From: Candidatus Kuenenia stuttgartensis
GTDB lineage: Bacteria; Planctomycetota; Planctomycetia; Pirellulales; UBA1268
NCBI GenBank assembly: GCA_945897435.1
Contig: CAMDFJ010000007.1
Span: forward strand, 1 to 60,739
Direction of reading: 5' to 3'
DNA length: 60,739 bases
Shown here: positions 7,542-26,605 of the stretch, in pieces
Numbering within the stretch: the stretch's first letter is position 1
Layout of the letters: every line of letters begins with the position of its first letter
Position numbers and translations under genes: made by a program
Notes under the pieces: model-generated
Database searches by the model: none
What the model was told of the DNA's origin: nothing
What the model saw: the letters and a program-made list of their open reading frames with translations, nothing else

Positions 7542-9608
7542 TCACTCTTCGCCTGCCACCGGGGGCGAGTCCGACGGGGCGGCGATCTGCGGAGCGGTGA
7601 AATAGACGTTGGTCGGCTGGTGCCAGTCTGCGGCCGGATCGCCCCCGCTCAGCACGAACTGGCTGAAGTAGTTTCGCTCGGCGTGTTTGGTTCCGTCGCC
7701 GATGTTGCGGTCGCGGTTATCCGCGCAGCGGTTGTTGAAAAACAGATTGTCGTGGGCCGTCTTGTCGCCGGCCCGGCCCCCAAGTCCGATGCCGCGGCCA
7801 TTCTGCAGGCAGAGATTGGCGGCGATCACGTTTGGGCCGGTGTTGCCCCCGACCGCCTCGTTCCAGACGTGGATGCCCGCGACCCGGTTTCGCTCGAGGC
7901 GGTTTCCGAAGACCACGTCGTGGCGGACCGCCTCCTCGACGAACAGTCCATGGCGACGGTTCCCGGAGCAGACGTTGAACAGCGCCGTGCAGTCGGGTGC
8001 CAGGGCATCGATGTCGATACCGTCGAGGCCGTTGTCGAGGCAGATGTTGTCGATGGCATGCACGTTGTTGGCGACATGGATCCAGATGCCCCGTCCGCCG
8101 CTGTCGGCGACCCGGCAGCCGCGGATGAACAGCGGCCGACCGCCGCGGCCCCGGGTGCTGATGCCGTCGAAGGCGGCTCCCCGCACGACCACGCCGTCGA
8201 TCAGGGCGATGCCTCCCCGGGTGGCGTTGATGCCGTGGAACACCTGCCGATCGGCGTCGAGCAGGCCTCCCGAAAACGATGCACAGCCGTCCTTGGGCAG
8301 CTGCACGACCTGTGTCGGCGGTGCCTTGGCATCGTAGGCGGGGTTGCGCGGCAGGCCCGGATCGGCCCGGATCGTGCCATCGAGCAAGACGCATGTGTTT
8401 GCCGGCAGTTTGAGCCCGTCGGGCGACCTCGAAACGTAATGCCCCGTGAGCGTGAGCACGATCACGTCCTTGGGACGCTTGGCCCGCTCGCCGTCGAGGG
8501 CGGTCTGGATGGCGGCGATGTCGGTCGGCGAGTTTTTGTCCTTCGATCCCGGCATGGGGAGATCCCGCCGGCCCATGCCGGGCACGATCATCGGCCGGGT
8601 GTGCGGATCGGCGGCGGTTGGTGGCTGAAACACCCGGAGCGGGTCGACGTTGCCGCTGGGCCGCATGCGGGAGTTTTGCACGAGCAGGTTGTCCTTGGTG
8701 CCGCTCCCGACCTTCACAGACGACTTCAGATCGTTGTTGAAGAGCAGGTTTCCGCTGCCGCCGATCAGGATCGCCCCGGTCGTGTCACCGCTGCGGTTTC
8801 CGGTCACGAGGTTGCGGCTGGCGGCCTTCGTCAGCGACAGCGTCGTGGTGTTGTCGTCGAACGTGTTGGCGGCGATCACGCCATGATCCGAGGCCGAGAG
8901 AATCCCGGTCTTGTTTCCCACGAGGTCGTTGCCGGCCACGACGCTGCAGAGCGACTGCATCGCCACGGCCATGCCGGTGTTGCCACCGAAATGGTTGTCG
9001 AGGCAGATGAAGCCGGCCGTGCTCGAGGCCTTCAGCCCGCTGCCGCAGTTCGAGATCCGGCAGCGGGTGAGGCTGCCGGCCTCGTTGATCGCCTCGGCGT
9101 TCCGGCCGACAAAGCTGACGCCAGTCGTGCCGCAGCCACGGATCTCGAGCCGATCAATGTTGACCCGGCCACTGTTCTCGATCGCGATGCCGCTGATGGC
9201 GAGGTCATGGCCGTCGATCACTCCGGCCGCGAGGCCGGCAGAGGAGATGAGCACGAGTTCCGCGTCGGCAACCGCGAGCAGGCTCTTGGCGGTCGGCTTC
9301 GGGGTCGCCTCGATCATCGCCCCCTGCTCGAACATCAGGCAGGTTCGCGATCCGAGCCTGAGCGGCTGGTCGCCGACCCTGACCGTGCCCGAGAGCCGGA
9401 CGAGGAGTATCGACTTGGCTGATTCCGAGCGGACCCGATCGATTCTGTGCTGCACATCGGCCGCCGAACCACCCTCGATCGAAAGTGACTTCTGCCCGAC
9501 CTCCGGGCCGGAGCCAGAGCCCGGGCCGGGGGGCGTGAAAAAAGGCTCCGCCGAGGCGACGCGTAATGCCAACAACGCCGTTGCAAAGGCCAGCGACGGT
9601 CGGATCAT
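7542..9608 (-). CDS. secreted parallel beta-helix repeat protein
   Basis: This 688-residue protein has a signal peptide (about residues 1-20, cleavage near ASA-EPF) and then a long series of right-handed beta-helix turns of the NosD / pectate-lyase-like type. The turns show repeated N, G and V ladders, such as NHFGGNTGMAV, NDLVGNKTGIL and NTFDDNTTTLSLTK. A glycine/proline-rich linker around residues 300-350 splits it into two helical halves. No catalytic residues are obvious. Proteins of this type bind or process polysaccharide or act as surface structures. Its ATG overlaps the TGA of the upstream lipoprotein gene (ATGA at 9605-9608), so it is translationally coupled as the last gene of the DUF1559 operon. 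Confidence 0.82.
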   Translation of the reverse strand: MIRPSLAFATALLALRVASAEPFFTPPGPGSGSGPEVGQKSLSIEGGSAADVQHRIDRVRSESAKSILLVRLSGTVRVGDQPLRLGSRTCLMFEQGAMIEATPKPTAKSLLAVADAELVLISSAGLAAGVIDGHDLAISGIAIENSGRVNIDRLEIRGCGTTGVSFVGRNAEAINEAGSLTRCRISNCGSGLKASSTAGFICLDNHFGGNTGMAVAMQSLCSVVAGNDLVGNKTGILSASDHGVIAANTFDDNTTTLSLTKAASRNLVTGNRSGDTTGAILIGGSGNLLFNNDLKSSVKVGSGTKDNLLVQNSRMRPSGNVDPLRVFQPPTAADPHTRPMIVPGMGRRDLPMPGSKDKNSPTDIAAIQTALDGERAKRPKDVIVLTLTGHYVSRSPDGLKLPANTCVLLDGTIRADPGLPRNPAYDAKAPPTQVVQLPKDGCASFSGGLLDADRQVFHGINATRGGIALIDGVVVRGAAFDGISTRGRGGRPLFIRGCRVADSGGRGIWIHVANNVHAIDNICLDNGLDGIDIDALAPDCTALFNVCSGNRRHGLFVEEAVRHDVVFGNRLERNRVAGIHVWNEAVGGNTGPNVIAANLCLQNGRGIGLGGRAGDKTAHDNLFFNNRCADNRDRNIGDGTKHAERNYFSQFVLSGGDPAADWHQPTNVYFTAPQIAAPSDSPPVAGEE

Positions 9609-10087
9609 TCGAGCGTCAGCGTGAAGGAGTTTGGACCATCCGGCGAGACGTCGGCCGTCAGCCCCGAGGTTTGGAACTCCTTGTACTTTGCCGGAAGAAG
9701 AGGCTTCTCGATCAGCGGGTAGTCGATGGTCGGGTCGGGGTTGGGAGGCAGGTTTTGGAGGAACTCGCTCTTGGTGACGCTGATCCGGTGGGGACCGGCC
9801 ACGACCCCCTCATATTCCTTGAACGTTTTCATCCGGAAAAAACCAGCGGAGTCGGTGTGGCCGATCGCCACCTTGCCACGGGCTTTATCATCCGGACTGT
9901 TCGACTCAAACATCACCGTGGCTCCGCCGCAGGGCTTGCCTTGATAGATCACGGTGCCCGTCGCAGAAAACACCTGCGGCCGCATCTTGGTCCATTTGTC
10001 GTCGACGCGTTTTGTGCAGCCGACGATCGTCGCCGTGAACAGGACGCAGATACAGGCGAGCCGAATTGCCGAGGTCCGAATGATCAT
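9605..10087 (-). CDS. small lipoprotein, carboxypeptidase-regulatory-like fold
   Basis: This 160-residue protein has a lipoprotein signal ending in IVGC, with lipidated C24. The body (about residues 43-110) follows the pattern of planctomycete carboxypeptidase-regulatory/transthyretin-like proteins: [17 protein letters not shown], a [11 protein letters not shown] strand and [11 protein letters not shown]. Such lipoproteins are commonly encoded right after DUF1559 pseudopilins. Both ends overlap neighbours as ATGA (10084-10087 and 9605-9608). It is probably membrane-anchored and facing the periplasm, perhaps a partner of the pilin-like product. No enzymatic function is evident. Confidence 0.83.
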
Positions 10088-11241
10088 GGCATACCGGACC
10101 CCTCGCCGCCGTTGCGCGTGCCCAGAGCGCCCCAGACGCCCGCGATGCTGCTGCCCGTTGGACCGGCGCTCCCCTGGGTCGACGATGCGTCCGCGGTGCC
10201 ATTGTCGATCGTTTCAGCGATCCAGAGCACCGCTCCGTCGCCCATCATCACCTGAACGCCTCCGGGGTGTCTGCTTCGGGGAGGAACGACTGCCCGCTGC
10301 CAATCGGTGCTGTTGCCGCTATTACGGTTGGCACAGACCGGCCCGTTGGGCTGGAGCATCGTGTTGAAAAGCATGACGCGGCCTGCGTACATGTTGCTGC
10401 CCGGTACGACATATTCCCTGCCGTTCGCGGCCGGAGTGTAGCCAGTATCGCCCAGATAGACGGACCGGCAGGTTCGGGGACTGCGTTCTGCACTGTCGTT
10501 GGACGAGGTGTAGGTCGCCCACCTGTCGTTCACGACACGCCGCACATTCGATCCGTCGGTATAGAGGTTGCTGAAAGCAAACTCCGCCATGGCGATCGTC
10601 TTCGAGACGCCGTCTGTTGCGTCGCGGAAACGCACCCCCTTGTTGAGACCGAACAGGCCTCGGCCAACGCCTACCGGAGTGGTGGCCGGCGATGCCGCGC
10701 AGACCGTCCCTTCTTCGCACATCAGGTTGCCGAGTTTATCGCCCGCTGAGAGAAGGTAATTGCTGTGTCCCGCCTCGGTGGCGAGTGTTGGTGTCGATGC
10801 ATCCGAAGGACAGAGCGCGGTTTTGATCCGGGTTCGGAATATGGGATTCGACCCTGGATCCGGCCTCGTCCCTGAGGCGATGATCTGGTCGTAGAGGGTC
10901 GCCTGTTCGCAGAACGGAAGCATCGGGACGAAGCCGCTATAGCCACCGGAACCGGCCGGATAGGTCGTTCCATAGTTTGAGGAACTCGGTCCGCCGCAGC
11001 CATAGGGGAGCGAGTTCTTGGCGTCGTGATGGGCGTGCATCGCGATGCCGAACTGTTTCAGATTGTTGCCGCAGTTGGAACGGCGGGCCGATTCGCGGGC
11101 CGACTGCACGGCCGGAAGAAGGAGCCCGACGAGCACGCCGATGATGGCGATGACGACGAGCAGTTCGACCAGCGTGAAGCCCGGGGAACGAACGGCCTGC
11201 GGGGCCGTCGAAGGGCGGCAATGGAAGTCGGGAACGGCCAT
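10084..11241 (-). CDS. DUF1559 pseudopilin-like protein
   Basis: This 385-residue protein opens with a type IV pilin / pseudopilin N-terminal methylation signal ([20 protein letters not shown] near residues 21-40, with Glu at the +5 position), followed by a DUF1559 globular domain. Typical landmarks are [16 protein letters not shown] and the C-terminal [13 protein letters not shown]. These proteins are processed by a prepilin peptidase and displayed in the envelope. Planctomycetes carry large families of them with unclear roles. ATG at 11241 is preferred over the in-frame TTG at 11250. It is the first gene of a three-gene operon, with a palindrome and two hairpins in its upstream region. Confidence 0.9.
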
Positions 11242-11270: not shown

Positions 11271-11327
11271 GAGCGGAGATTTCCCCCCGCTCTCTCTTTC
11301 AACGGTAGGCCTCTACGGCCGCCGTTG
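11271..11327 (-). promoter_or_regulatory. two hairpins in the DUF1559 upstream region
   Basis: Two inverted repeats lie between the palindrome and the DUF1559 start. One spans 11300-11327 (CAACGG/CCGTTG arms with an inner GGCC/GGCC pair). The other spans 11271-11292 (GAGCGG/CCGCTC). If transcription starts upstream they would structure the 5' leader. No known riboswitch was recognised. Confidence 0.3.
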
Positions 11328-11350
11328 CCATTAGCCAATTGGCTAATGGC
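11327..11350. promoter_or_regulatory. 24-bp perfect palindrome (putative operator)
   Basis: Positions 11327-11350 are a perfect palindrome centred on AATT, with core TTAGCCAATTGGCTAA. It lies 86 bases upstream of the DUF1559 ATG and covers the stop codon of the sensor kinase gene. A close relative is found at 18963-18986 between the PEP-CTERM gene and the response regulator gene. Sharing between two promoter regions favours a regulator-binding site over a simple terminator. Confidence 0.5.
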
Positions 11351-13661
11351 CCTTCAATTTCGATGTTTTCGTCGATGAAACGCCCGCCTCTGGCCTGGGT
11401 GAACCCTGCTCAGAAACATCGATCTGGGCGTCGTAGTCCAGCTTTTTGACCTTCGCCCTGATCCTTGTGCCGCTGCCTGTCACCGTTTCGACCGAAAACT
11501 TTCCACCGAGCCGTTCGATCCGCTCCCGCATCCCAGTCAGGCCGAAGTGGCCCTGATCCGGCCCAGCCTGCGTGCCCTCCGCAAACCCCCTGCCGTCGTC
11601 CGCCACGCTGAGTTCGACCGAACCCAAAAGAGGGTCGAACCGTGTCACAACGTCGATCTGGCCGGCGTCGGCGTGGGCGAGGGCGTTGTGGATCGCCTCC
11701 TGGGCCACGAGCAGCAGGTTGCCAGCCAGGAACTGGGGCAGTTCGAAGGGCTCACCCTTGACCTGCACGTCGATGTGCTCGGCATGGCCGTGGCCTGTCT
11801 GTCTGGCGATGGTCGCCAGCGAATCGGCGAACGAGGTGCCCGCGACCGGCATGGTGCGGAGGGCCCAGACCGAGCCGCGGAGTTCCTCGGCGGCGTGGTT
11901 GACCATCTTTTGGGCGACGGCGAGATGTTCCCAAGGGTCCCGGGCTGGAGTGTCGCCCGAGGCCCGGCAGGCGCCGAGCTGAAAGTCGATCCCACGGAGC
12001 GTCTGCAGCAGGGTGTCGTGGAGGTTGGCCGCGAGCCGGTTTCGTTCCCGCAGGGTCGCCTGGAACTCCACGGCCGCATTTCGTCGCGAGCCCATCTCCC
12101 GGGCCAAAATCGCCGATTGGGCGGCCATCTCCCGCCGCAACAGCCAGACCCAGGCGAGCATCCCGGCCAGGACCGCAAGGACTCCCGCCAGCAGGGCCGC
12201 CAGTCGCCGTGGCGTCCACCAGGAGGGCGTCGAGAGCACGCTGACATCGGCGATCGAACGGAGCTGGAGACCGACCTGCTGGAGCACGGGATCGGCGACC
12301 ACCGAGGCTGTCTCCTCGTCGCCATGCAACTGGATCTGCAGGACACCTGTGACCTCGACGTCGCTGCCCGGCGTCAACTGTCTGAAGGGCTCGATGTTGA
12401 ATCCCTCGAACACCGAGGGAACGACCGCCGCTCCGCTGGAGAGCGACAGCAGCACCATGCCGGGGCGGGTCTCTTTGATCTCGATGAGCCTGGCGGGAAA
12501 CGTCACCAGGCAGCCGTCGTAGCTCGTCGGCTCGGCGATGTCGGTCTTCATCCGGGCTTCGTTGTTGATTCTGACGACCTCATCGGGAGCGATCCGTACC
12601 GGTGTGAGCGGAGACTCGTGGCCGATTCGCCTCACGATCGCCTCGATGATTCCTGCCGCCTGACGGCTCATGTCGAGGAATCCGGCCACCTTGACGCGGT
12701 CGCCGGGCGTGAGCGAGATGGCGGAGGGCGTGTTGACCCGCAGGCCGACGAGACCCTGCTGGAGGTAGATGAACTGGCCGGGCACGGCGCAGGTGACGAT
12801 GCCCTCCGTCTGGATGCGGTGGCCCGTGATCGACTCGAACCTGTAGCCGCCGATTTCGTCGAGCGGAACACGCGGCGAGTCGAATGGCTCAGAAGGCGGC
12901 GATTCAATCACATCCAGATCTTCGGCAGAGGCGATCCAGATCGATGGGCAGAGAAAATCGCCGCGGGTGTTGCGGATCGCCCCGAGGACACCCACCATCC
13001 TCACCGTCGCGTCGACGATCTTTTCCGGGGGCATTGCGAGCAGCCGCTTGGAGAGTCGGGCGACCATGCGCCGTGACGCCACCTCGACCACGAGCTTCCA
13101 GTGGGGGCCGTCGTCTCGAAACCCCTGCACGATGCCCGACAGTTCAACCCGCTTGCAGTTGTCGGCACCGTGAAAGAGCCGGGCCGGCTCCGGCCTGGAC
13201 GGCGGCGGCGATTCAGCAGGGCCGAGAACCCGCATCTTCTGGAGCATGATGACCGGGGCGTAACCACCCCGGTCGAGCATGCCGGTCACCTCGACCTCCT
13301 CGCCGAGCGGGAGCGAATTGCGGAGCTTGACCCAGTGCTCGTCGCCGGCGAGGTGCATCGCCTTCACATAGATGCCCGCCGTGTCATCCTGGATCGCGAA
13401 GAAAAACTGATCTGCGTCAGCGAGTGTCACGATACCGCGGGTCGTCAGGCTCGCGGTCCGGCTCCTCGCAGCCGCCGGAAGCGAGAGAATCTCGGCGATC
13501 GGCGTGATGCGGACAGCCGGAGATTCGCCGACCGGAACGGCTGACGGGCGGACATTCTCTTCACCGACGTCGCCGCGAACAATGGCTCCAGAACAGAGCA
13601 ATGCCGCGACAACGAGCCAGCAAGGGATTAGCCCAGCCCTGATCCGATGCCTGAAGTCCAT
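11343..13661 (-). CDS. NarL-family sensor histidine kinase with periplasmic sensor repeats
   Basis: This 772-residue protein has a signal/anchor segment at about residues 8-30 and a long extracytoplasmic region with several OB-fold-like modules (for example LTTRGIVTLADADQFFFAIQD and TEGIVTCAVPGQFIYLQQG). A transmembrane helix lies near residues 485-510. The HisKA_3 dimerisation box RNRLAANLHDTLLQ holds the phosphorylated His548. The HATPase has an N box (AQEAIHNALAHA), a G1 box (VADDGRGF) and a G2-like block (GHFGLTGMRERI). It presumably senses an envelope signal and phosphorylates a NarL-type regulator; the one at 19071 is the obvious candidate. It lies 78 bases downstream of the PEP-CTERM gene on the same strand. 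ATG at 13661 lacks a clear ribosome-binding site. Confidence 0.88.
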   Translation of the reverse strand: MDFRHRIRAGLIPCWLVVAALLCSGAIVRGDVGEENVRPSAVPVGESPAVRITPIAEILSLPAAARSRTASLTTRGIVTLADADQFFFAIQDDTAGIYVKAMHLAGDEHWVKLRNSLPLGEEVEVTGMLDRGGYAPVIMLQKMRVLGPAESPPPSRPEPARLFHGADNCKRVELSGIVQGFRDDGPHWKLVVEVASRRMVARLSKRLLAMPPEKIVDATVRMVGVLGAIRNTRGDFLCPSIWIASAEDLDVIESPPSEPFDSPRVPLDEIGGYRFESITGHRIQTEGIVTCAVPGQFIYLQQGLVGLRVNTPSAISLTPGDRVKVAGFLDMSRQAAGIIEAIVRRIGHESPLTPVRIAPDEVVRINNEARMKTDIAEPTSYDGCLVTFPARLIEIKETRPGMVLLSLSSGAAVVPSVFEGFNIEPFRQLTPGSDVEVTGVLQIQLHGDEETASVVADPVLQQVGLQLRSIADVSVLSTPSWWTPRRLAALLAGVLAVLAGMLAWVWLLRREMAAQSAILAREMGSRRNAAVEFQATLRERNRLAANLHDTLLQTLRGIDFQLGACRASGDTPARDPWEHLAVAQKMVNHAAEELRGSVWALRTMPVAGTSFADSLATIARQTGHGHAEHIDVQVKGEPFELPQFLAGNLLLVAQEAIHNALAHADAGQIDVVTRFDPLLGSVELSVADDGRGFAEGTQAGPDQGHFGLTGMRERIERLGGKFSVETVTGSGTRIRAKVKKLDYDAQIDVSEQGSPRPEAGVSSTKTSKLKGH

Positions 13662-13739
13662 GCAGCCAATATACAGCCCAATACCGGCTCGAACCCCAGC
13701 GAATGAGGTGACCCGGCCAGGCGTTCCTGCGGAGATGAA

Positions 13740-16700
13740 TCAGGCCGCACGCCGGCGGTGGGCCGACAGGGCCGCGATCGCGACACCGATGCCGGTGATC
13801 ACGATCGCCGACGGTTCGGGCACGACGACCATCTGCATCTGCATCACCTGCCCGCCATTGGCGGCGACCGTGGAAACGGTGACCGACTTGGAAGCATCGT
13901 ACTGGGCGAGGGTCTGGTAGGAGAGGCCGTTGTAGAGCACAGACCCGCCGACATCCTCAACGAAGTAGTTGAACGTCGCCCCCGAGATGCTCGAGAGGAA
14001 GTCCGACGCGGTGTTCGTGAAGAATCCGCCTGTCAGCGTGCCGAGTCCCACGGCGGACTGCGAGAAGTAGACGTTCACTGCGTTGGCCGATGAAAGCGAA
14101 CTGAGAAACGCAGTGCCGCCGGTCAGTTTCAGCAGGTCGTTGCCGCTGTTGGCGACGTTTGAGTAGTCGGGATTGGCCTGATTGAATTCGAACGCGAAGC
14201 CGGTGCCAGCCGAGGGATCGAGCGCGATGGCCGAGAGAATTCCGGGGGAGTTACCCGGACCGACGAGGCCGGCACCGGCGAGCGTACCGGCGAGCGTGCC
14301 CGTGCCGCCGAGCGAGGCACCTGCCGCCACGGAAACGTTCGGGCTCTGCAGGCTGCCGTTGACGACAAGTCGGCCGTTGCTCACCGTTGTGTCGCCCGTG
14401 TAGGCGTTCGCCCCCAAGAGCGTGAGCGAGCCGGTGCCGATCTTGTTGAGGGCCGCTGTCGTCGTGCCACCGATGGCGTTGGCAAACGAGACGTTGTTGC
14501 CGTTGGTGTCGAGCGTGGCGACGGTGCCCGCCTTCGTGTCGAACGTGAGCCGATCCGAAATGTCGGCCGTGTTGCCAGTCGCCCACTGGAGCGTGCCGTA
14601 GCCGACATTGCTATCCGTGCGGGTCGTGCCCGAGCCGATCGTGATCGTGCCTGTGCCAAGATTCACGGCCGAGGCGAAGTTGAGCGTGCCGTACATGACG
14701 CGGGTACCGCCTGAATAACTGTTGGTGCCGCGGAGTGAGAGAGTTCCGCTGCCGTTGGCCTTCGAGAGCGTCGCGGCCCACGTGCCGGTGTTGGTGATGT
14801 TGCTGGCGAACGTGACGTTGTTTGCGCCGGTGTCGAAGTAGCCGGTCATCGCTGCCGACCCGGTGCCGATCTGGAGCCGGCCGGAGATGTCGTCCGTATT
14901 GCCGGGCGCCCACCGCAATTCGCCGTTCGTCATCTGGACGGTGCTCGCCGTGGGAATGGCGCCGCTCGTGAATGCCAGGGTATTTTGATTGACATTGGTC
15001 GGGCCGGTGTAGGTATTCGCGCCGGAGATCGTCCAGGTTCCGTTCCCCTGCTTTCTGACGCCGACAACGCTTCCGACACCGTCGGCAATGACTCCGCTGA
15101 ATTCCCCGGAAGCGGTATTCCCGGCGTTGAGTGTGAACGTCTTGGCACCGCTGCCGGTGACGACCACACCTCCCGAGATCGAAAGAGTGCCGGAGTCGAG
15201 TTGCAGCGTGCCGCCGCCGGACGTGCCGGCGAGTGCGATCACCTTGTCGGACGTCTCAGAGGCCCCGAGCCATCGCAGCGTGCCGCCGTTGGTCGTCGAT
15301 CCGAGTGAGATCGTGCCACTGGTGCCGATGGAACTCGCCGCGCCGGCCATGCCGATCTTTGCGACATAGAGCGTGCCCTGATTCACCGAAACACTGCCGG
15401 TGAAGGCACTGGTTTCAGACGTCAGATACCCGCTGCCGGCACCGGTTTTGACGAATGAGATCACCGAACTGCCCGCACCAGCCGGGATTGCGCCCTCGAG
15501 CCTGACGTTGCCTGAACCTCCGAGCGTGAGCGTCTTGGCGCCTTCGTTCGGCGCGGTCCAGTCGCTCGTGATCGTGAGCTGCTGGCCGCTCGTCGCCGAG
15601 TTGATCGTCGCCCCGCCGGTCGCCCCGCCGAGGGCAAATGCCCGGTTCGTCGACTCCGTGCCACTGCCCGTCCAGGTGAACGTTCCCGAAGTCGCTGCGT
15701 TGCCGAGCGAGATCGTGCCCCCTGAGCCGAGGACGCCGTTCAAACCACTGTTCCCCACAGTCGACGACGTCAGCAGGCCCCGCTGGACGTTCAGACCGCC
15801 TGAGAAACTGTTGCCGGTGTTGGTGAGCTGGAGCGTGCCGTTGGCGAGCGTGACGGCGCCCGAGCCACTGATGAGCGTGCCGACGTTTCCACCCTGATTG
15901 TCGGTGCGGGCGAAGACGAGCGAGCCTCCCAAGTCCACTGCGATACCGCTGGTGGAGGCGATCGATCCCGTTGTGCCGCCATTGCCGATCTGCAGCGAGC
16001 CGCCGTCGATGGCCGTCGCACCCGTATAGCTGCTCGAGCCGGTGAGGATGAACGTGCCAGTGCCCGACTTCGCCAGGCCGCCCGTGCCCGCGATCGCACC
16101 GGAGAACGAGGTCGACGTGTTGTCGCCACCAGTCGTGAGCGTGTTGCCGCCGAGCGTGACCGATCCAGCTCCGGCGAGCGAGCCGATCGCGTCGCTGCCG
16201 CCGAGGGCGAACGTGGCGGCACTTTGGACGGTGACGGCAGCAGTGTCGGCAAGCACGTCCGCTCCGGTCGTCGAGAGTGTGCCGTCATTGACGTTCACGG
16301 CACCCGTGAGGGTGTTGGCACCGCCAAGCGAGAGCACGCCCGCTCCGGTCTTCGTGAGGCCGGCGGATCCGGAAAGATTACTGTTGATCGTCGTGGTGCC
16401 CGCCGACGCGGTGAGCGTGTTTTTGGCCGAATCAACGCCGCCGAGCGCTATTTCGCCGCCGGTGACGGTGTAGCCGCCGACATTGAACAGCATCCCGTTG
16501 TTCGCCGATACACCACCGGCATCGACCGTGACCGTGCCGGGAGTGCCCGAGAAGTCAGCTGCCTTGGCCGGGTTCCAGGCACCACCGCTCCAGTTCGTGC
16601 CGCCGGTGGCCGTCCATGCCCCGTCTCCACCGGTGCCATTGAGCCAGTTGAGTAGCTGGGCGGCGGTGTAGGTGATATTGATGTCGTTGCCCGCACTCGC

Positions 16701-18815
16701 GAGTGCGAAGGAGCCGCCGTTGTAACCCGTGAGCGTGTTGTTGAGCGTGAACGCGGCCGAGTCAAACGAGGATCCGAAGCTCGTTGCGCCCAGGATCTTG
16801 AAGACCTTGTCGGTCGAATTGTCGAAGTTGGCGGCACTGCCCGAGAGATTGATGACGAACTTCGAGCCGCTGGAGTTGGCGAACGTGAGAGCCCCGGTCG
16901 AGAGCAGATCCCAGCCGGTGCCCGCGGCGAGCGAGGCGTTCGTCATCTGGATATTGAGCGAGCCGCCGCCGCCGAGCGTGGTCGCCCCGGTCGTGAGGAT
17001 GCCGACCGCGGCCGCGTCGCCGGGGTTCACCGTGCCGGAGATGCTGACGCCGCCGAGCACGGTGCCGGCACCGCTCAGCGTTTTGCCCGACGTGAGCGAC
17101 AGGCCACCCGTTACGGCGGTCACGTCGTAGGTCGCCCCGGAGGCGACATTGAACGCCGACGACCCAACCGAAGCCGCCGAACCCAGAGCGAGGGTGCCGT
17201 CCGAGACCGTCGTGGCTCCAGTGAACGTGTTGGCGTTCGTGAGCGTCAGGCTGCCCGCCCCGGCCTTTGTCAGGCTGCCCGCACCACCGATCAGGCCCGC
17301 GTAGGAGTCGGTCGTCGCCTGGTCGAACGTGATACCGGCGTTGTTGGAGAGCGTGATGTTGTTCCGCAGGCTGGAGGTCGTGCCCACGAGCGACCCGCCT
17401 GAGGCGGTGACATTGCCGGTGTATGTGTTGGTGCCGGTCAGCGTCACGGTGCCGGCGCCCGTCTTCGCGAGCGAAATCACCGAGCCTGCAGTCGTGCCCG
17501 ATCCATCTGCGATCACCCCGGAGAATGCCAGATCGCCCGCACCGCCGAGCGTCAGCGTTTTATTGCCCGAGCCCGACACGCGCAGGTTGCTCGAGATCGA
17601 GAGCAATTGGCCGGCGGTAGCGCTTGTGATCGTGGCACCGCCCGTAGTACCCGACATGGCGAAGACCTTGCTTGTGGTCTCCGTGCCGCTGCCGATCCAG
17701 TTGAGGCCGGCCGCGGTCGAGCCGCTGCCGATCGCGATCGTGCCGCTCGTGCCGAGAGAACTGACCGAGCCGGCCGCGGCGCCGAGGCTCGCGGCCGCAA
17801 GTGTGCCGCCGTTGAGAGAGACGTTGCCGGTAAACGCGTTCGCCGTGCCGGAGAGCGTCACCGTGCCCGTACCGGTCTTCAAAAAGCTGATCACCGAGCT
17901 GGCCGGACCGGCTCCGATCAGTCCGGAGAAACCTATGTTGCCGTTGCCGCCGAGCGTGAACGTCTTGTTGCCCGTGCCGCTGATGAAGAGGTCGCTCGTG
18001 ATCCCGACAAGACTGCCGCCCGTGCTGTTGCTGATCGTGCCGCCGCCCGTGGTTCCAGCCAGCCGGAAGACTTTGCTCGTCGTTTCAGTGCCGCTACCGA
18101 TCCATTTGAGTTCGGCGCTATTGCTCGACCCTCCCAGTTGAATGGTCCCCGAGGTACCAAGCGCACTGGCCAACCCTGCCGCCGATCCAAAGTTTGTGGC
18201 ATTGAGAAAACCGTTTGCCGACACCAAGACCGGCCCACTGAATGTGTTGGAAGTCCCCGAGATCGTAACGCCGCCCGTTCCGCTGTCCTTCGAGACGCCG
18301 CCCGTGCCGCTGATGACACCGGTCAGAAAGGCCAGAGACCCAGCTTGTGCGTTTTGCAGGCTGAGCGTTCCAGTGTTGATGACGATGTCGTTGGTGATCG
18401 TGACCTGGGGCCTTGTGCTTCCCGTAGCAGTACCCGACTGAATCGAAATTCTTCCAAACCCGGTGTTCTGCGAACCGGCATTCGCCTCGAACGATAGCGG
18501 GTTGCCTGCAATCGTCAGCATCGAGGACCCGTTTCCGCCAGAACCGGAAAATGTCAGGGTGTTGAGACTGAACGTACCGGCGACATCGTTGTTTGTGGTA
18601 ACAGTAGCGCTGCTCGCCATGCTGCCCGTGAAGACCAGTGACGTGGTGCTGCTGCTCACCGGGGTCGACGACCAGTTCGTTCCGGCCGACCACTGTGTGG
18701 TCCCTGATGCCGGAACGGTGTACGTGTATGTGACGGGAGCGGCAATCGATGACGTCGCGCCGAATGCCACAGCGGCGGCGATGGCAGCGAGGGCAAGTCT
18801 TGAGTTCGAAAGCAT
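13740..18815 (-). CDS. giant autotransporter-type beta-repeat protein with PEP-CTERM anchor
   Basis: This 1691-residue protein has a signal peptide (about residues 1-27) and about a dozen passenger-associated beta-strand repeats of the type seen in autotransporters, recurring as GTGTVTLSGTANAFTGNVSLNGGTL. The C-terminus is a PEP-CTERM sorting signal: VPEPSAIV, a hydrophobic helix and an RRR cluster. PEP-CTERM proteins are cut and anchored by an exosortase, which is not in this window. No outer-membrane beta-barrel translocator is present, so it is not a classic type V autotransporter. ATG at 18815 is chosen because GGAG lies 8 bases upstream and a good signal peptide follows. ATG at 18863 is possible, and the frame remains open further upstream only as antisense to the regulator. 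Probably a large surface or matrix protein. Confidence 0.86.
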   Translation of the reverse strand: MLSNSRLALAAIAAAVAFGATSSIAAPVTYTYTVPASGTTQWSAGTNWSSTPVSSSTTSLVFTGSMASSATVTTNNDVAGTFSLNTLTFSGSGGNGSSMLTIAGNPLSFEANAGSQNTGFGRISIQSGTATGSTRPQVTITNDIVINTGTLSLQNAQAGSLAFLTGVISGTGGVSKDSGTGGVTISGTSNTFSGPVLVSANGFLNATNFGSAAGLASALGTSGTIQLGGSSNSAELKWIGSGTETTSKVFRLAGTTGGGTISNSTGGSLVGITSDLFISGTGNKTFTLGGNGNIGFSGLIGAGPASSVISFLKTGTGTVTLSGTANAFTGNVSLNGGTLAAASLGAAAGSVSSLGTSGTIAIGSGSTAAGLNWIGSGTETTSKVFAMSGTTGGATITSATAGQLLSISSNLRVSGSGNKTLTLGGAGDLAFSGVIADGSGTTAGSVISLAKTGAGTVTLTGTNTYTGNVTASGGSLVGTTSSLRNNITLSNNAGITFDQATTDSYAGLIGGAGSLTKAGAGSLTLTNANTFTGATTVSDGTLALGSAASVGSSAFNVASGATYDVTAVTGGLSLTSGKTLSGAGTVLGGVSISGTVNPGDAAAVGILTTGATTLGGGGSLNIQMTNASLAAGTGWDLLSTGALTFANSSGSKFVINLSGSAANFDNSTDKVFKILGATSFGSSFDSAAFTLNNTLTGYNGGSFALASAGNDINITYTAAQLLNWLNGTGGDGAWTATGGTNWSGGAWNPAKAADFSGTPGTVTVDAGGVSANNGMLFNVGGYTVTGGEIALGGVDSAKNTLTASAGTTTINSNLSGSAGLTKTGAGVLSLGGANTLTGAVNVNDGTLSTTGADVLADTAAVTVQSAATFALGGSDAIGSLAGAGSVTLGGNTLTTGGDNTSTSFSGAIAGTGGLAKSGTGTFILTGSSSYTGATAIDGGSLQIGNGGTTGSIASTSGIAVDLGGSLVFARTDNQGGNVGTLISGSGAVTLANGTLQLTNTGNSFSGGLNVQRGLLTSSTVGNSGLNGVLGSGGTISLGNAATSGTFTWTGSGTESTNRAFALGGATGGATINSATSGQQLTITSDWTAPNEGAKTLTLGGSGNVRLEGAIPAGAGSSVISFVKTGAGSGYLTSETSAFTGSVSVNQGTLYVAKIGMAGAASSIGTSGTISLGSTTNGGTLRWLGASETSDKVIALAGTSGGGTLQLDSGTLSISGGVVVTGSGAKTFTLNAGNTASGEFSGVIADGVGSVVGVRKQGNGTWTISGANTYTGPTNVNQNTLAFTSGAIPTASTVQMTNGELRWAPGNTDDISGRLQIGTGSAAMTGYFDTGANNVTFASNITNTGTWAATLSKANGSGTLSLRGTNSYSGGTRVMYGTLNFASAVNLGTGTITIGSGTTRTDSNVGYGTLQWATGNTADISDRLTFDTKAGTVATLDTNGNNVSFANAIGGTTTAALNKIGTGSLTLLGANAYTGDTTVSNGRLVVNGSLQSPNVSVAAGASLGGTGTLAGTLAGAGLVGPGNSPGILSAIALDPSAGTGFAFEFNQANPDYSNVANSGNDLLKLTGGTAFLSSLSSANAVNVYFSQSAVGLGTLTGGFFTNTASDFLSSISGATFNYFVEDVGGSVLYNGLSYQTLAQYDASKSVTVSTVAANGGQVMQMQMVVVPEPSAIVITGIGVAIAALSAHRRRAA

Positions 18816-18962
18816 TTGCTGCGCTCCGAGAAAGTACTTCAGTGAAAACAATCTGGATGCCATGGACTCAATTCCCGACTGCAAAAGATGAAGACTGGTC
18901 GTGCGACGGAGAAAATGCCCCCCCCTTTTCCTTACGAATACTATTTCTGGTTCCCGACCACC

Positions 18963-18986
18963 GCTATTAGCCATCTGGCTAGGGAG
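18963..18986. promoter_or_regulatory. imperfect copy of the DUF1559-upstream palindrome
   Basis: The core TTAGCCATCTGGCTAG (18967-18982) matches the palindrome core at 11331 in 13 of 16 positions. The left flank is also conserved (GCTA versus GCCA). It sits in the 255-bp region between the PEP-CTERM gene (minus) and the response regulator gene (plus), 148 bases upstream of the former and 85 upstream of the latter. It is a candidate shared operator. Confidence 0.5.
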
Positions 18987-19070: not shown

Positions 19071-19748
19071 ATGGGTCCCCCCAAGGCCTCCACTCCCCCC
19101 ATCCGGCTGATGCTGGTCGACGACCATGCCGTGATGCGGGCAGGGCTGGCCAACCTGCTCGGTTCTGGGCTGGGGTTCGAGGTCGTGGCCCAGTCGGACG
19201 ACGGCGAGACGGCCATCCGGCTCTGGCCGAAGTTCAAGCCCGACGTCTGCCTGCTCGACATGACGATGCACGGGATCGACGGTGTCGAGACCCTGAGCCG
19301 ACTGCGGAAGGTGGCCCCCGCCGCCCGGGTGCTGATGCTGACCTCGTCCGATTCAGCCGAGGACATGGCCCGGGCGATGAAGGCCGGGGCCAACGGCTAC
19401 GTCACCAAGAACGTCCAGCACAAGGAACTGTTCGACGCCATCCGGGAGGTCCATGCCGGAGGCCGACCCGTGAGCAGTTCAACGATCATCGAGTCGCGGC
19501 CCACGACGGCCGAGACCGGCGGATCGCCGCTGACGCCCCGGGAGATCGAGGTCGTGGCCCTGATGCGGGAGGGCTTCACCAATCAGGAGATTGGCAGGCT
19601 GCTCGGCATCTCGACCCACACCGCCAAGGCCCATGTCGCAGGCGTGCTTGAAAAACTCAACGCCAGCGACCGTACCCAGGCCGTCGCCCGTGCCTTCGAC
19701 CTCGGCCTGCTCAAGGCCGCCCATCTGCAGGGCAGACCGAAAATCTGA
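19071..19748 (+). CDS. NarL/FixJ-family response regulator
   Basis: This 225-residue two-component regulator has a receiver domain at residues 11-130. The acidic pair D17-D18 and the phosphoacceptor D63 (in CLLDMTM) are visible, as is the conserved VTKN lysine. A LuxR-type helix-turn-helix occupies about residues 155-210 (LTPREIEVVALMREG, NQEIGRLLGISTHTAKAH). It should bind DNA as a dimer upon phosphorylation. It is divergent from the PEP-CTERM gene and separated from the likely cognate kinase gene by that gene. The beta-helix/SGNH gene begins 14 bases after its stop, so the two may be co-transcribed. No strong Shine-Dalgarno is seen before the ATG at 19071. Confidence 0.92.
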   Translation: MGPPKASTPPIRLMLVDDHAVMRAGLANLLGSGLGFEVVAQSDDGETAIRLWPKFKPDVCLLDMTMHGIDGVETLSRLRKVAPAARVLMLTSSDSAEDMARAMKAGANGYVTKNVQHKELFDAIREVHAGGRPVSSSTIIESRPTTAETGGSPLTPREIEVVALMREGFTNQEIGRLLGISTHTAKAHVAGVLEKLNASDRTQAVARAFDLGLLKAAHLQGRPKI

Positions 19749-19762
19749 CCGGAGGATCTCTC

Positions 19763-22504
19763 ATGCCAGCCTTCCGCCGATTGTGTTTCCTGCTCGCACT
19801 TTCGTTGCCGGTGCATCCGGCCGCGAGCGCCGCGACATTCCACGTGGCTCCCACGGGCGACGACGCCGCCGCAGGCACCGCCGCGGCACCGTTTCGCACG
19901 GTGCAGCGCGGGGCCGAGGCGGCCCAGCCCGGCGATATCGTGCTCGTTGCACCCGGCATCTACCGGGAGCGGGTGGCACCGCCCCGTGGCGGCGCCGATG
20001 GAAAGCCGATCCTGTTTCGATCGAAGGAACTCCACAGGGCGGTCATCAAGGGATCGGATCTCTGGAAGCCGGTCTGGAAGCAGGAGGGCGGCCGCGTCTG
20101 GTCGGGCGAGGTCGATCCGAAACTGTTCACCGACGCCTCCCAGGTCGATGGCCCCAATCCGTTCGAGATCGGCTTCGCGAGCACCCCCTACGGCCGCGAG
20201 GGAAAGCCCGAATACGAGCGGCACCTCAAGAAGGAGCGGGCGGGGAATCCCAAGGCCGATCCCGACCTCGTCTACAGCCTCGGCCAGGTGTTCGTGGACG
20301 GCCAGATCCTGCGGCAGGCGCCTTTTCGCAAGGAGATGGAGCAGGAGCCTGGGCGCTGGTGGTATGACCGGTCAGGTCGGCGGCTATTCGTGCACTTCGC
20401 GGCCGACGGCCCGGAGGGGCACGAGGTCGAGATCACGACCAGGCGCCGGATCTTCGCGCCCCACGAACGCGGGCTGGGCCACATCGAGATCGAGGGCTTC
20501 GTCTTCGAGCACTGTGGCAACCAGTATCCGACCGACTTCTGGATCAAGGAGAAGCCGCAGAATCAGCAGGCGGGCGCCGTCGGCACGCGGAGCGGCCACC
20601 ACTGGAAGATCAGGCGCAACCTGATCCGGCTGGCCGCCGGCGTCGGCCTCGACATCGGCAAGGAAGGGTCCGAGGAAAAGGATCTGGAGATCGGCGACCG
20701 CAGGCGGGCCGGCACGCCTGGGCACCACGTCGTCGAGGAAAACTGGATCCTCGACAACGGGGCCGCCGGCACGGCGGGCTACTTTCCGACCCGGGTCGAA
20801 CTGCGGCGGAACGTCGTCGTCGGCAACAACGCCCTCGGATTCACCGGCCAGAAGCGATGGGAAAGCGCCGGGATCAAGCTCCACGGCCCCAAGCATTCGC
20901 TGATCGAGGGCAACTTCACCGCCTGGAACAACGGCGCCCCCGGGATCTGGTGCGACCAGGGGCCGGGCACGGAGACGCGGCTCCTCCGCAACACGAGCAT
21001 CGGCAACAGCAAGGGAATCGACTTCGAGATCGGCGGCAAGGACAACGCCGTCGTCGCCGCCAACGTGCTGATCGACAACGACGTCGGGATCTCGCTCCGC
21101 GAGGCAGGCCACGTGAGCCTGCTGCACAATATCGTTCTCGGTTCGAAGAAGGCGGCCGTCGAGTGCGCCGTCGAGAAGAGCCGCCCCGGCAATTGGTCGG
21201 CCGAGAATGTCAGCTGCCACGACAGCCTGATCGCGGCGCCGGGGTTGCTCGTCAGCGTGACCCGGCCCGACTACATGCGGAGCGCCGGCAGACGGTTCGA
21301 CCGCAACCTCTACGGGGCCGATCCTGCCGAGGCGAAGTGGGCGTTTGCCGCACCGAAGCCCGTCCCCGAGCCGTTCACGGCCTGGCGCGAACTGCTCGCG
21401 AAGTTCAATGACGGCAGCGATGCCGACGGGGCCAGCACCGCCGCAGGCGGCATCGAGCACTTCTTCGACCCGGTCTCGATGGACCTCGTGCTGCGGATCC
21501 CGGAGCAGGCGGCGATTCCCGCCTGCCCGGCCGACAAGCGGCTGCCGACCGACTTCTTCGGCAAGCCGTTCGCCTCCGGCACGGCCACGTCACCCCCCGG
21601 TCCGTTCGCCGGACTCAAGCCCGGCGGCAACCGCTTCCGGCTCTGGAGCGGCCCGCTGCCCGAGCTGCCGAGCGTTGCCACAGTCCCGGACCACGAGCCG
21701 ACGAACGACGCCGAGGTGCAGGCCCAGAACCGGTATCTCGACACGATGTCGAACGCCGACTACGCCAACTGGCTGGCGTTCGTGTCAAAGCAGGAGCCGG
21801 AGCGGCAGGAGTGGCTGAAGACGCTCGAGCGGCAGCTGGGGTCGTTCTACGGTCCTCCCTACATGCGGGACCTGGCCAAAGGCAGCCCCAAGATCACTGC
21901 CGAGAACGACGCCTGGGCCTACGTCAAGGATGATCCCGCCCTGCCCCGGATGCTGATCATCGGCGACTCGATCTCCCGCAGCTACACCGCGCCGGCCCGG
22001 CTGGCCCTCGCCGGCAGGGCCAACGTCCATCGGGCTCCGGCCAACTGCGGTCGCAGCGACTACTTCTTCAAGCATGGCGAAGACTGGCTCAGGCAGAACG
22101 GCAGCAATCGCTGGGACCTGATCACGGTGAACTACGGGATCCACGACTACGACAAGAAGCCCGAGCAGTTTGCCGACAACCTGCGGAAGATCATCGCCCG
22201 GCTGCGGGAGACGGGGGCCAGAATCCTCTGGGTGCGGACGACCCCCTGGGGACGGGCCGACGACGACCTCTCGATCGATCGCAGCCCCAAGACCAACGAG
22301 ACCTCCGACGCGGTGGCGAAGGCCGAGGGACTCGAGATCGTCGATCTCCACGCCCTGTTGATCGACGAACGCGGTCGCCTGCAGGCCGCCGATCGAACCC
22401 ACTGGAAGGACGAGGCCGCCGCCATCCTCGGCAAGGCGGTGGCGAAGGCGGTCGAACCCCATCTCGTCAGGCAGGGCGGTCGAGCACCTGATCGAGATCG
22501 ATGA
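19763..22504 (+). CDS. secreted beta-helix protein fused to SGNH hydrolase
   Basis: This 913-residue protein has a signal peptide (about residues 1-23). A DUF1565-like/right-handed beta-helix region covers about residues 25-520 (FHVAPTGDDAAAGT, FRTVQRGAEAAQPGDIVLVAPGIYRE, then turns such as NVLIDNDVGISLREAGHVSLLHN). A C-terminal SGNH/GDSL esterase domain starts near residue 725: nucleophile Ser736 in IIGDSIS, a glycine block ANCGRS, NYGIHD and the catalytic pair D877-x-x-H880. This suggests binding of a polysaccharide by the helix and removal of acyl groups by the hydrolase. GGAGG precedes the ATG. Its last 38 bases overlap, tail to tail, the end of the FAD oxidoreductase gene. Confidence 0.87.
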   Translation: MPAFRRLCFLLALSLPVHPAASAATFHVAPTGDDAAAGTAAAPFRTVQRGAEAAQPGDIVLVAPGIYRERVAPPRGGADGKPILFRSKELHRAVIKGSDLWKPVWKQEGGRVWSGEVDPKLFTDASQVDGPNPFEIGFASTPYGREGKPEYERHLKKERAGNPKADPDLVYSLGQVFVDGQILRQAPFRKEMEQEPGRWWYDRSGRRLFVHFAADGPEGHEVEITTRRRIFAPHERGLGHIEIEGFVFEHCGNQYPTDFWIKEKPQNQQAGAVGTRSGHHWKIRRNLIRLAAGVGLDIGKEGSEEKDLEIGDRRRAGTPGHHVVEENWILDNGAAGTAGYFPTRVELRRNVVVGNNALGFTGQKRWESAGIKLHGPKHSLIEGNFTAWNNGAPGIWCDQGPGTETRLLRNTSIGNSKGIDFEIGGKDNAVVAANVLIDNDVGISLREAGHVSLLHNIVLGSKKAAVECAVEKSRPGNWSAENVSCHDSLIAAPGLLVSVTRPDYMRSAGRRFDRNLYGADPAEAKWAFAAPKPVPEPFTAWRELLAKFNDGSDADGASTAAGGIEHFFDPVSMDLVLRIPEQAAIPACPADKRLPTDFFGKPFASGTATSPPGPFAGLKPGGNRFRLWSGPLPELPSVATVPDHEPTNDAEVQAQNRYLDTMSNADYANWLAFVSKQEPERQEWLKTLERQLGSFYGPPYMRDLAKGSPKITAENDAWAYVKDDPALPRMLIIGDSISRSYTAPARLALAGRANVHRAPANCGRSDYFFKHGEDWLRQNGSNRWDLITVNYGIHDYDKKPEQFADNLRKIIARLRETGARILWVRTTPWGRADDDLSIDRSPKTNETSDAVAKAEGLEIVDLHALLIDERGRLQAADRTHWKDEAAAILGKAVAKAVEPHLVRQGGRAPDRDR

Positions 22505-24965: not shown

Positions 24966-25817
24966 TCAGTCCGCGAGCTTGCCCGCCTGGGCCCGGAAAA
25001 ACTCGCGGCCCCAGATGTCGAGCGTGGGCAGGTCGGCTGCCCGCACGAAGGCCCGCACGTCCTCGCGGGCCCGCGACCAGTCGATCGAATCGATCTTCTG
25101 CTCCAGGGCCCGCAGGCACCAGCGCCGATCGACGTCGGGGGCAGTGCCGGCCCAGGGGCCGGTCTGGGCGAGCGCCGCGGCGAGCAGCCGGTAGTTCACC
25201 GGCGTTCGGCGGGCCGTATACCAGATGAAGTCGAACCAGTCGCGACCCTTGAGATAGCGGCGGCAAAGCACGGCATGGAGCTTGCCGGCGAACAGGCTGG
25301 ACGGGTCGTGGGCGACCGTGGCCTGCGGAAACGGGAAGTCGAGGTAACGCGTCTCGAAACTACCGCCGGCAGGAGGATTCGTGTCGACCTCCAGCTTGAT
25401 GCGGACCATCCGGGCCGGTCCCGTGGTCGGCCGGTACTGCAGCTGGAGCAGGTCGCCGAGGGAGTCGTCCTTGAGAAACGCGGTGCGCACGGCCTGATCG
25501 ACGCGGGAGCGATCCACGAACTCGATGTCGTAGCCGTAGGCGGTCATTTCGCGACGAATGACCGGCAGGTAGGGCTCCAGTCGAAACCTGGCGTCGGGTG
25601 CCTGCAGGGTGAAGTCGAGATCCTCGGAGAACCGCGCGAGCCCGTGCAGAATCCGCAGGCAGGTTCCCCCCTGAAATGCGGCGTGGCGGAAGAAATCGGT
25701 GCGGGCGAGCGCCGCGAGGACCACCTCCTGCGTGATCTCACGGATGGCGCGATCCTCCTCCAGCGTGGAGCTGCAGCCATACGCGGCCAGCCGTTCCTGG
25801 ATCAGCGCGATCGACAT
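24966..25817 (-). CDS. AbiEii-family nucleotidyltransferase toxin
   Basis: This 283-residue protein belongs to the nucleotidyltransferase AbiEii/AbiGii toxin family, the toxin half of the type IV AbiE phage-abortive-infection system. The nucleotidyltransferase signature appears at about residues 49-71 (GGTCLRIL, then RFSEDLDF). The later family motif KGRDWFDFIWY is intact near residue 210. Family members modify tRNA or other targets with nucleotides to stop growth. A strong GGGAGGTGG precedes the ATG at 25817, inside the end of the antitoxin gene, so the two are coupled with a 16-base overlap. It looks complete. Confidence 0.9.
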   Translation of the reverse strand: MSIALIQERLAAYGCSSTLEEDRAIREITQEVVLAALARTDFFRHAAFQGGTCLRILHGLARFSEDLDFTLQAPDARFRLEPYLPVIRREMTAYGYDIEFVDRSRVDQAVRTAFLKDDSLGDLLQLQYRPTTGPARMVRIKLEVDTNPPAGGSFETRYLDFPFPQATVAHDPSSLFAGKLHAVLCRRYLKGRDWFDFIWYTARRTPVNYRLLAAALAQTGPWAGTAPDVDRRWCLRALEQKIDSIDWSRAREDVRAFVRAADLPTLDIWGREFFRAQAGKLAD

Positions 25818-26452
25818 CCGGCCACCTCCCTGCCGAGCCCGGCGAGAAATCTTCGCACCCGCTGCGAGCGATAGTTGGCGGCGAGCGAGCTGCACTGCTC
25901 GGGCTGGATCTCCGCGACGCACTCTGGCGGGAGCCGCAGGCTCTCGATGAGCGGCTCGACGCCCCTCCAGTCGGCCCGGCGCACCGATACGTAGTCCGCC
26001 AGGGCCTTGAGCGGTGTGGCGATGAAGGCTGCCTGCCGGTCGCCTCTGGGGACCCGCGAGACGTCGGCAAAGAGCTTCCGCTGGGGAACGCGATCGAAGC
26101 GAAACGAGCCGATCGGCGTCTGAAACTGGCGGCTTCTCGCGTCGCAGACGCTCGTCACCGTCTCCACCGCCTCTGGCAGCCAGCCGTGGAATGCGAGCGC
26201 TGCTTCGAGGCTCACGTAGCTCGGTCCCATGATGCGCTGGGCGATCGCGAGCGAGTCGATCGGGCGGTCGCGATAGCGGGCTCCCAGGCAATAGAGCCCG
26301 CGGCAGATGCGGATGACTTCGCCGGCCGCGAGGGCGCGTTTGACGAGCGCAGCCTCGGCATCCGCCGATCCACGCACCCACGCGGCCACCTCGGCCCGCG
26401 TGAACACGCCGGCTGGTGACGAGGCGAGGGCCAGTTCCGTAAGTCGCTGCAT
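25802..26452 (-). CDS. AbiEi-family antitoxin / autoregulator
   Basis: This 216-residue protein matches AbiEi-type antitoxins. It has an N-terminal winged helix (VFTRAEVAAWV through VIRICRGLYCLG, about residues 16-60) followed by the AbiEi body (SYVSLEAALAFHGWLPEAVETVTSV). Such proteins neutralise the toxin and repress their own promoter by binding inverted repeats. It is directly upstream of and overlaps the toxin gene. No ribosome-binding site lies before the ATG at 26452; a -10-like TATCAT ends 6 bases before it, suggesting a leaderless transcript. A palindrome at 26464-26482 is the natural operator. Confidence 0.85.
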   Translation of the reverse strand: MQRLTELALASSPAGVFTRAEVAAWVRGSADAEAALVKRALAAGEVIRICRGLYCLGARYRDRPIDSLAIAQRIMGPSYVSLEAALAFHGWLPEAVETVTSVCDARSRQFQTPIGSFRFDRVPQRKLFADVSRVPRGDRQAAFIATPLKALADYVSVRRADWRGVEPLIESLRLPPECVAEIQPEQCSSLAANYRSQRVRRFLAGLGREVAGCRSR

Positions 26453-26458
26453 ATGTGC

Positions 26459-26482
26459 ATGATACTGTCAGAAAATGACAGT
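26459..26482 (-). promoter_or_regulatory. abiE operator palindrome and promoter
   Basis: ACTGTCA (26464-26470) and TGACAGT (26476-26482) are perfect inverted arms around 5 bases. The candidate -10 TATCAT (26464-26459, minus strand) overlaps the proximal arm. A regulator bound here would block RNA polymerase, as in known AbiEi negative autoregulation. Confidence 0.55.
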
Positions 26483-26566
26483 TTCCAGCACGAATAATGG
26501 CCCAACCATGACGGACTCTCCAGATGGCCATTCGGCCGCCCGATGGTGACGTCCGGCTGGAGGAGC

Positions 26567-26605
26567 GGCTCAGGCGAGCAGGTCGGGAATCACCTTCGCG
26601 TGCTC
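26567..26605. repeat. direct repeat, right copy (genuine DUF1501 3' end)
   Basis: This is the intact partner of the repeat at 24896-24934. It contains the last 12 codons of the DUF1501 gene, including its stop at 26570-26572, plus 3 bases beyond. The AbiE pair lies exactly between the two copies. Confidence 0.8.

Follow-up and report, generated by a model that had tools for sequence, protein, structure and literature searches.

Genes and palindromes of the locus

The window, by which we designate the whole stretch of 60,739 nucleotides that was analyzed, contains a two-component system whose kinase and regulator genes flank the gene of a giant protein, as proposed in the initial annotation. 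The response regulator (positions 19071 to 19748, plus strand) belongs to the NarL/FixJ type. It contains receiver (Response_reg, PF00072, 4.8e-29) and GerE (PF00196, 2e-15) domains, has VraR and NarL among its PDB relatives, and harbors the recognition helix STHTAKAHVAG. The sensor histidine kinase (11343 to 13661, minus strand) comprises a signal peptide, extracytoplasmic OB-like barrels, one transmembrane helix, and the HisKA_3 (PF07730, 2.3e-12) and HATPase_c (PF02518, 1.2e-11) domains of NarX/DesK-type enzymes. In an AlphaFold model based on 24 sequences (mean pLDDT of 74), tandem OB-like β-barrels occupy residues ~50 to 480 and are followed by the transmembrane helix. In a structure search, the catalytic core resembled the structures of DesK and VraS. 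The tandem-OB HIN domains (5z7d) were rejected as a guide to the ligand of the sensor since the match was too weak for this purpose (TM-score of about 0.13–0.2). The tandem OB-like sensor (residues 50 to 480) is conserved across the whole kinase family, and relatives of the kinase are present in records from Planctomycetota, Verrucomicrobiota, and Acidobacteriota.

The giant protein (13740 to 18863, minus strand; ~1707 residues, with an uncertain start codon) harbors nine β-strand repeats (PATR/TIGR02601), and its gene is divergent from that of the regulator. A PEP-CTERM-like motif, recognized by pattern, is present in its C-terminal tail, VVPEPSAIVITGIGVAIAALSAHRRRAA; no PEP-CTERM model of Pfam or NCBIfam was listed at E ≤ 0.001, and the models flagged only the β-strand repeats. 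Downstream of the kinase gene, the minus strand encodes an H-X9-DG pseudopilin of the DUF1559 type (10084 to 11241; SBP_bac_10, PF07596, 2.8e-45; TIGR04294) with a prepilin N-terminus (PF07963, 1.5e-6). The end of this gene overlaps the gene of a small lipoprotein-like protein (9605 to 10087, minus strand), which recurs beside DUF1559 genes in the sister modules described below. The next gene in the same direction, encoding a right-handed β-helix protein (7542 to 9608, minus strand), probably belongs to the DUF1559 unit. On the other side of the locus, a gene for a right-handed β-helix and GDSL-lipase protein (19763 to 22504, plus strand) starts 15 bp downstream of the regulator gene. Further away, the C-terminal part of an 893-residue frame (24966 to 27647, minus strand) matches the AbiEii nucleotidyl transferase of type IV toxin-antitoxin systems (6e-29).

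Two palindromic sites had been singled out in this region and both are present. Putative operator 1 (11327 to 11350), GCCATTAGCCAATTGGCTAATGGC, is perfectly palindromic over its 24 bp and includes TTAGCCA-AT-TGGCTAA; no longer perfect palindrome without a gap was detected in the window. It is located between the kinase and DUF1559 genes, overlaps the stop codon of the former, and lies ~86 bp upstream of the ATG of the latter (about 11241). Since the site is nested in the kinase gene at its 3' end, transcripts of the DUF1559 genes may arise from operator 1 as well as by read-through from the kinase gene. Putative operator 2 (18967 to 18982), TTAGCCATCTGGCTAG, i.e. TTAGCCA-TC-TGGCTAG, is located in the divergent region between the giant and regulator genes, its center being ~97 bp upstream from the regulator start. 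Operator 2 matches operator 1 at 13 of 16 positions, as initially reported, the expectation from shuffles being 0. Two of the three mismatches fall in the 2-bp spacer and the third at an outer base. Thus, both sites are exact copies of TAGCCA-NN-TGGCTA, a 6-2-6 dyad. A scan for sigma-70-type promoters detected none. The regulator would be expected to prefer TTAGCCATCTGGCTAG over TTGGCCATCTGGCCAA.

Distribution of the dyad

The whole 3.0-Mb genome was searched for the dyad with up to one mismatch. Three places were found, all of them exact copies, versus ~0.09 exact copies expected from base composition. The third place, C114:6231, corresponds to the D-arm of a gene for tRNA-Cys. Outside this gene, the exact dyad is private to its own module. 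The initial annotation would have taken scattered genome-wide matches as evidence against a regulatory role, and the matches were not scattered. It had also asked whether matches to the core lie upstream of DUF1559 and PEP-CTERM genes; the exact dyad is missing from ~26 other DUF1559 genes of the same genome. This restriction led us to reject the idea that the site defines a DUF1559/PEP-CTERM regulon across the genome. For motif scans, it is worth noting that the tRNA-Cys D-arm at positions 1495 to 1567 of L002, and in relatives, holds TAGCCAAGTGGCTA, which exactly matches the operator dyad.

A longer form of the dyad, TTAGCCANNTGGCTA, was searched across 79 genomes. It occurred mostly once per genome and in almost all cases read TTAGCCACTTGGCTA, as in the D-arm of tRNA-Cys. 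The identity of the tRNA was checked in the genome of the window; in relatives, the recurring single TTAGCCACTTGGCTA matches are probably due to the same D-arm. Matches other than TTAGCCACTTGGCTA were confined to the genome of the window (G000), G029 (contig C154), G059 (C78), and G004 (C208), in each case beside, and upstream of, a regulator gene of the window-type subfamily; these regulators are orthologues or close paralogues displaying 66–77% identity. In G029 and G059 (loci L033 and L106), the dyad is located in the divergent region, where the adjoining divergent gene is the orthologue of the β-helix and GDSL-lipase gene of the window, and a second copy with one mismatch is found upstream of DUF1559. 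The conservation upstream of orthologues that the initial annotation had called for is thus observed. In G004, two tandem dyads precede the regulator gene, and the divergent neighbor again encodes a β-strand-repeat protein. At the position of operator 2, the dyad is kept in L033, L106, and L107, and with one mismatch in L112 (G090); no tRNA gene was found in the first three loci. The 12 core bases are 11–12/12 identical between copies. For the 43-bp flanks, identity between different genera is mostly ~14–50%, which is near the random level.

Sister modules and the recognition helix

Relatives of the kinase (E ≤ 1e-60) were detected in 29 of the 72 genomes of the family, with up to nine copies per genome. 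These genomes are fragmented metagenome assemblies in which gene starts are approximate and species labels may be wrong, and the regulators were gathered by similarity to that of the window, which under-samples distant subfamilies. A kinase and a regulator gene were located within 1.5 kb of each other at 46 of 80 loci, and a DUF1559 or prepilin gene was present within 5 kb at 41 of 80, versus ~8 expected from a density of one DUF1559 gene per 70 kb. Neighboring cargo genes encode β-strand-repeat giants in L111, L112, L052, and L107, and right-handed β-helix proteins in L037, L162, and L106. The identity matrices of the kinases and regulators are correlated (r = 0.64; 0/2000 permutations), a co-divergence that fits cognate pairs.

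Palindromes are enriched in the intergenic DNA of the modules, with 13 observed versus 0.8 expected at scores of at least 17 bits, and 8 versus 0.25 at scores of at least 19 bits. Most upstream dyads are centered 66–142 bp ahead of the regulator start, where a site for autoregulation and for control of the divergent gene would be expected. At the same positions, different paralogues carry different palindromes. Word C, ATTGGAGN4CTCCAAT, has six exact sites in 72 genomes, and these are confined to three contigs that also bear close relatives of the module; the regulators have the helix SERTVRAHVTA in two of these contigs, and a stop codon interrupts the regulator gene in the third (G029:C189). 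Word E, ATTGTCGN4CGACAAT, has eight exact sites family-wide, including seven at loci with the helix TERT[VAS]RAHV. Words B and D are less specific since exact matches at module loci are limited to three of nine for word B (TTGGCCANNTGGCCAA, helix STRTAKAHVAA) and three of seven for word D (ATTGGCGN4CGCCAAT, helix SERTARAHV), family-wide, the other six and four having no module regulator nearby.

A template blind to the helix (TTwxyz-N4-complement-AA) was used to scan 50 kb around 62 regulators, with a non-inverted template as the control. The scan returned 21 exact dyads versus 0 for the control, and 36 versus 5 once one mismatch was allowed. At least one dyad was found in 27 of the 62 loci; the lack of a template dyad in the 35 remaining loci of this first set is partly due to contig ends and stringency. 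Two operator positions follow the helix. Position w (position 4) is A with a histidine in the helix (5/5) and G with an arginine (22/26), whereas position z (position 7) is C with a lysine (13/16) and G with an arginine (12/15). In other words, the change from H to R is accompanied by the change from TTAGCC to TTGGCC and, three residues on, the change from K to R by that from C to G. Fisher tests by distinct helix type, in which phylogeny is ignored, gave p = 3e-4 for K/R and p = 0.01 for H/R, and the tree suggests that the helix changed independently few times. A rule based on three positions accounts for 27 of 34 locus-operator pairs, versus 6.5 when the labels were shuffled. Two related loci with the helix TARTARAHIEA are counterexamples, with GGCA in place of the expected GGCG. 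The dyad TTGACCGGACGGTCAA of L069, located 201 bp before the regulator gene and within the end of the kinase gene, was set aside as off the rule.

Loci outside the sample carry more weight, because the rule was largely read from the data that it fits. Genome contigs from outside the family, not used in forming the rule, were scanned. Three exact dyads were obtained versus 0 for the control; they occur in L205 and L223 only, and both loci are as predicted. L205, from an assembly labelled Lentisphaerae (helix SERTAR), has GGCG twice, adjoining the gene of a 1866-residue β-repeat protein, and L223, from an assembly labelled Akkermansia (helix TRRTAK), has a GGCC dyad. The predicted GGCC was also found, with one outer mismatch and near a prepilin gene, in L217 (Planctomycetes bacterium CA13, helix TARTAK; site sequence as in L288) and in L287, from another family (helix TARTAK). 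A single match of this kind means little alone since one-mismatch matches numbered 9 versus 7 for the control. Together, four out-of-sample loci (L205, L223, L217/L288, and L287) carry the operator predicted from the sequence of the helix. The template dyad was not found in most of the more distant loci of Verrucomicrobiota and Acidobacteriota, where the helices have other residues at the H/R position.

The two code positions may have a structural counterpart in DegU. K194, K197, and N198 of the DegU recognition helix make the base contacts in a model of the DNA complex (PMC9263151), and the code positions have the i, i+3 spacing of K194 and K197, with which they may align. VraR, a homologous regulator, has lysines at both aligned positions.

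Several further palindromes were observed in the scanned genomes. The closest module (L109, G096:C116; kinase, 66%), whose regulator gene runs off the contig, has the palindrome ATTGTCCGaaCGGACAAT in its divergent region (positions 490 to 515), from which the rule predicts a TERTxK helix for the G096 regulator. L041, whose regulator has the helix TERTAK, shows a GTCC dyad 88 bp before the regulator gene. Two identical AAATTGGCGGCGCCGCCAATTT palindromes (L283 and L286, G089:C157:5181 and 5654) lie at a distance of 473 bp from each other. The surrounding 1.5 kb contains no match to a kinase, regulator, or DUF1559 gene, and these palindromes are possibly another repeat or the mark of a distant cargo gene. 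The palindrome TCCTATTGGCGGATCCGCCAATAGGA (L284, G090:C115:5282), which likewise lacks a module regulator in the surrounding 1.5 kb, is a possible remote target or chance occurrence.

Proposed operators of the local regulator and comparison with known systems

We consider it very probable that the two sites of the window are operators of the local NarL-type regulator, each module of the family having its own operator, specified by the recognition helix, and its own surface-protein genes. Other readings of the palindromes are considered improbable. The palindrome at 11327 could be an intrinsic terminator or mRNA hairpin ending the kinase gene, with no relationship to the site at 18967. As RNA, it would form a 10-bp stem with an AAUU loop in a region that folds with a z-score of -5.7, and it overlaps the kinase stop codon. 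However, there is no T-run on the transcribed minus strand, and the match on the plus strand is antisense to the genes. In the window, L033, L106, and L107, the dyad also precedes divergently oriented genes, a position in which a terminator would make no sense, and it is the sequence, not pairing alone, that is conserved and tracks the helix of the regulator. We regard this explanation as improbable. To the same small degree we would credit the view that the dyads are operators of a different DNA-binding protein, whose gene lies elsewhere, and that the local regulator is a bystander. Each genome does encode many NarL-type regulators, but the operator word varies from one paralogue to the next, and also across families, in step with the helix of the neighboring regulator, and exact copies of words A, C, and E are rarely found away from a local regulator. 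Finally, although the modules are multi-copy and patchy and the half-sites short, chance or a repeat or mobile element (MITE, REP) is a most unlikely source of the shared word, in view of the two non-tRNA copies in the genome, their unrelated flanks, and the excess of intergenic dyads over expectation.

If the sites are operators of the local regulator, the kinase would sense an extracytoplasmic signal through its tandem OB-like barrels and phosphorylate the regulator, whose C-terminal dimer would bind the 7-2-7 dyad TTAGCCA-NN-TGGCTAA. At 18967, the regulator would control divergent promoters, with its own gene and the β-helix gene on one side and the β-repeat giant and kinase genes on the other. 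At 11327, it would control the DUF1559, lipoprotein, and β-helix genes. Binding of both sites and control of the regulator/β-helix, β-repeat/kinase, and DUF1559 units by the predicted regulator is the most likely interpretation. The observations behind it are the dyads, their restriction to the locus, their conservation, and their covariation with the helix; it is binding, the pairing of the kinase and regulator, the signal, and the direction of regulation that we infer. The proposal of the initial annotation that one signalling unit governs pilin-like and β-repeat surface products is supported by these comparisons, and the idea that the regulator binds both sites is strengthened by the covariation of helix and operator across paralogues. 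What had not been anticipated is that the site is private to its module and that sister modules appear to use other palindromes, predictable from the helix. If each regulator has its own operator, the step of DNA recognition probably keeps sister copies of the same genome insulated from each other. On balance, we lean toward the broader view of a multi-copy NarL-type family, spread over Planctomycetota and other phyla, in which private helix-coded operators would define orthogonal channels from sensor to surface protein, each with its own pseudopilin/β-repeat cassette. This would suggest how many duplicated signalling pairs coexist in a cell without cross-activating each other's genes. The paralogous regulators and their matched operators would also offer a natural series for decoding the binding specificity of a very large family, which could be tested by single residue swaps.

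Regulators of the NarL/FixJ family, such as NarL, VraR, DesR, DosR, and DegU, recognize inverted-repeat operators. The regulator of the window resembles them in its receiver and GerE domains, and differs in belonging to a family of many paralogues with a readable relation between helix and operator and with locus-private sites. In Proteobacteria, the PrsK/PrsR two-component system, which depends on sigma-54, is associated with a motif shared by sites upstream of PEP-CTERM genes, and further regulators and motifs were foreseen for such genes (Haft et al., 2006; PMC1569441). Both systems combine a kinase/regulator pair with a DNA motif common to sites upstream of surface-protein genes. However, PrsR, an NtrC-like sigma-54 activator, has a single motif for many PEP-CTERM genes (PMC1569441), whereas the regulator described here is of the NarL type, its putative site is a simple dyad confined to the locus itself, and its paralogues have different dyads. 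Its Pfam matches (Response_reg and GerE) include no sigma-54 activator or Fis domain. Duplicated EnvZ/OmpR pairs become insulated at the interface between the kinase and the regulator (Nocedal and Laub, 2022; PMC9208753). The signalling pairs described here similarly diverge after duplication, which would avoid cross-talk, but the divergence concerns the regulator-DNA step, in many copies.

Outside Proteobacteria, the module provides a candidate regulator and DNA site for DUF1559 and β-repeat surface genes; our literature search found no paper that assigns DUF1559 genes a regulator or an operator of their own. Rhodopirellula baltica has 74 DUF1559 genes, the expression of which depends on stress (PMC2754498), and large families of such genes are common to this species and the planctomycete genomes analyzed here. 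In a small sample of the latter, the module-free genomes G003, G010, and G013 harbor 26–38 DUF1559 genes and the module-rich genomes G004, G022, G029, and G059 harbor 55–64.
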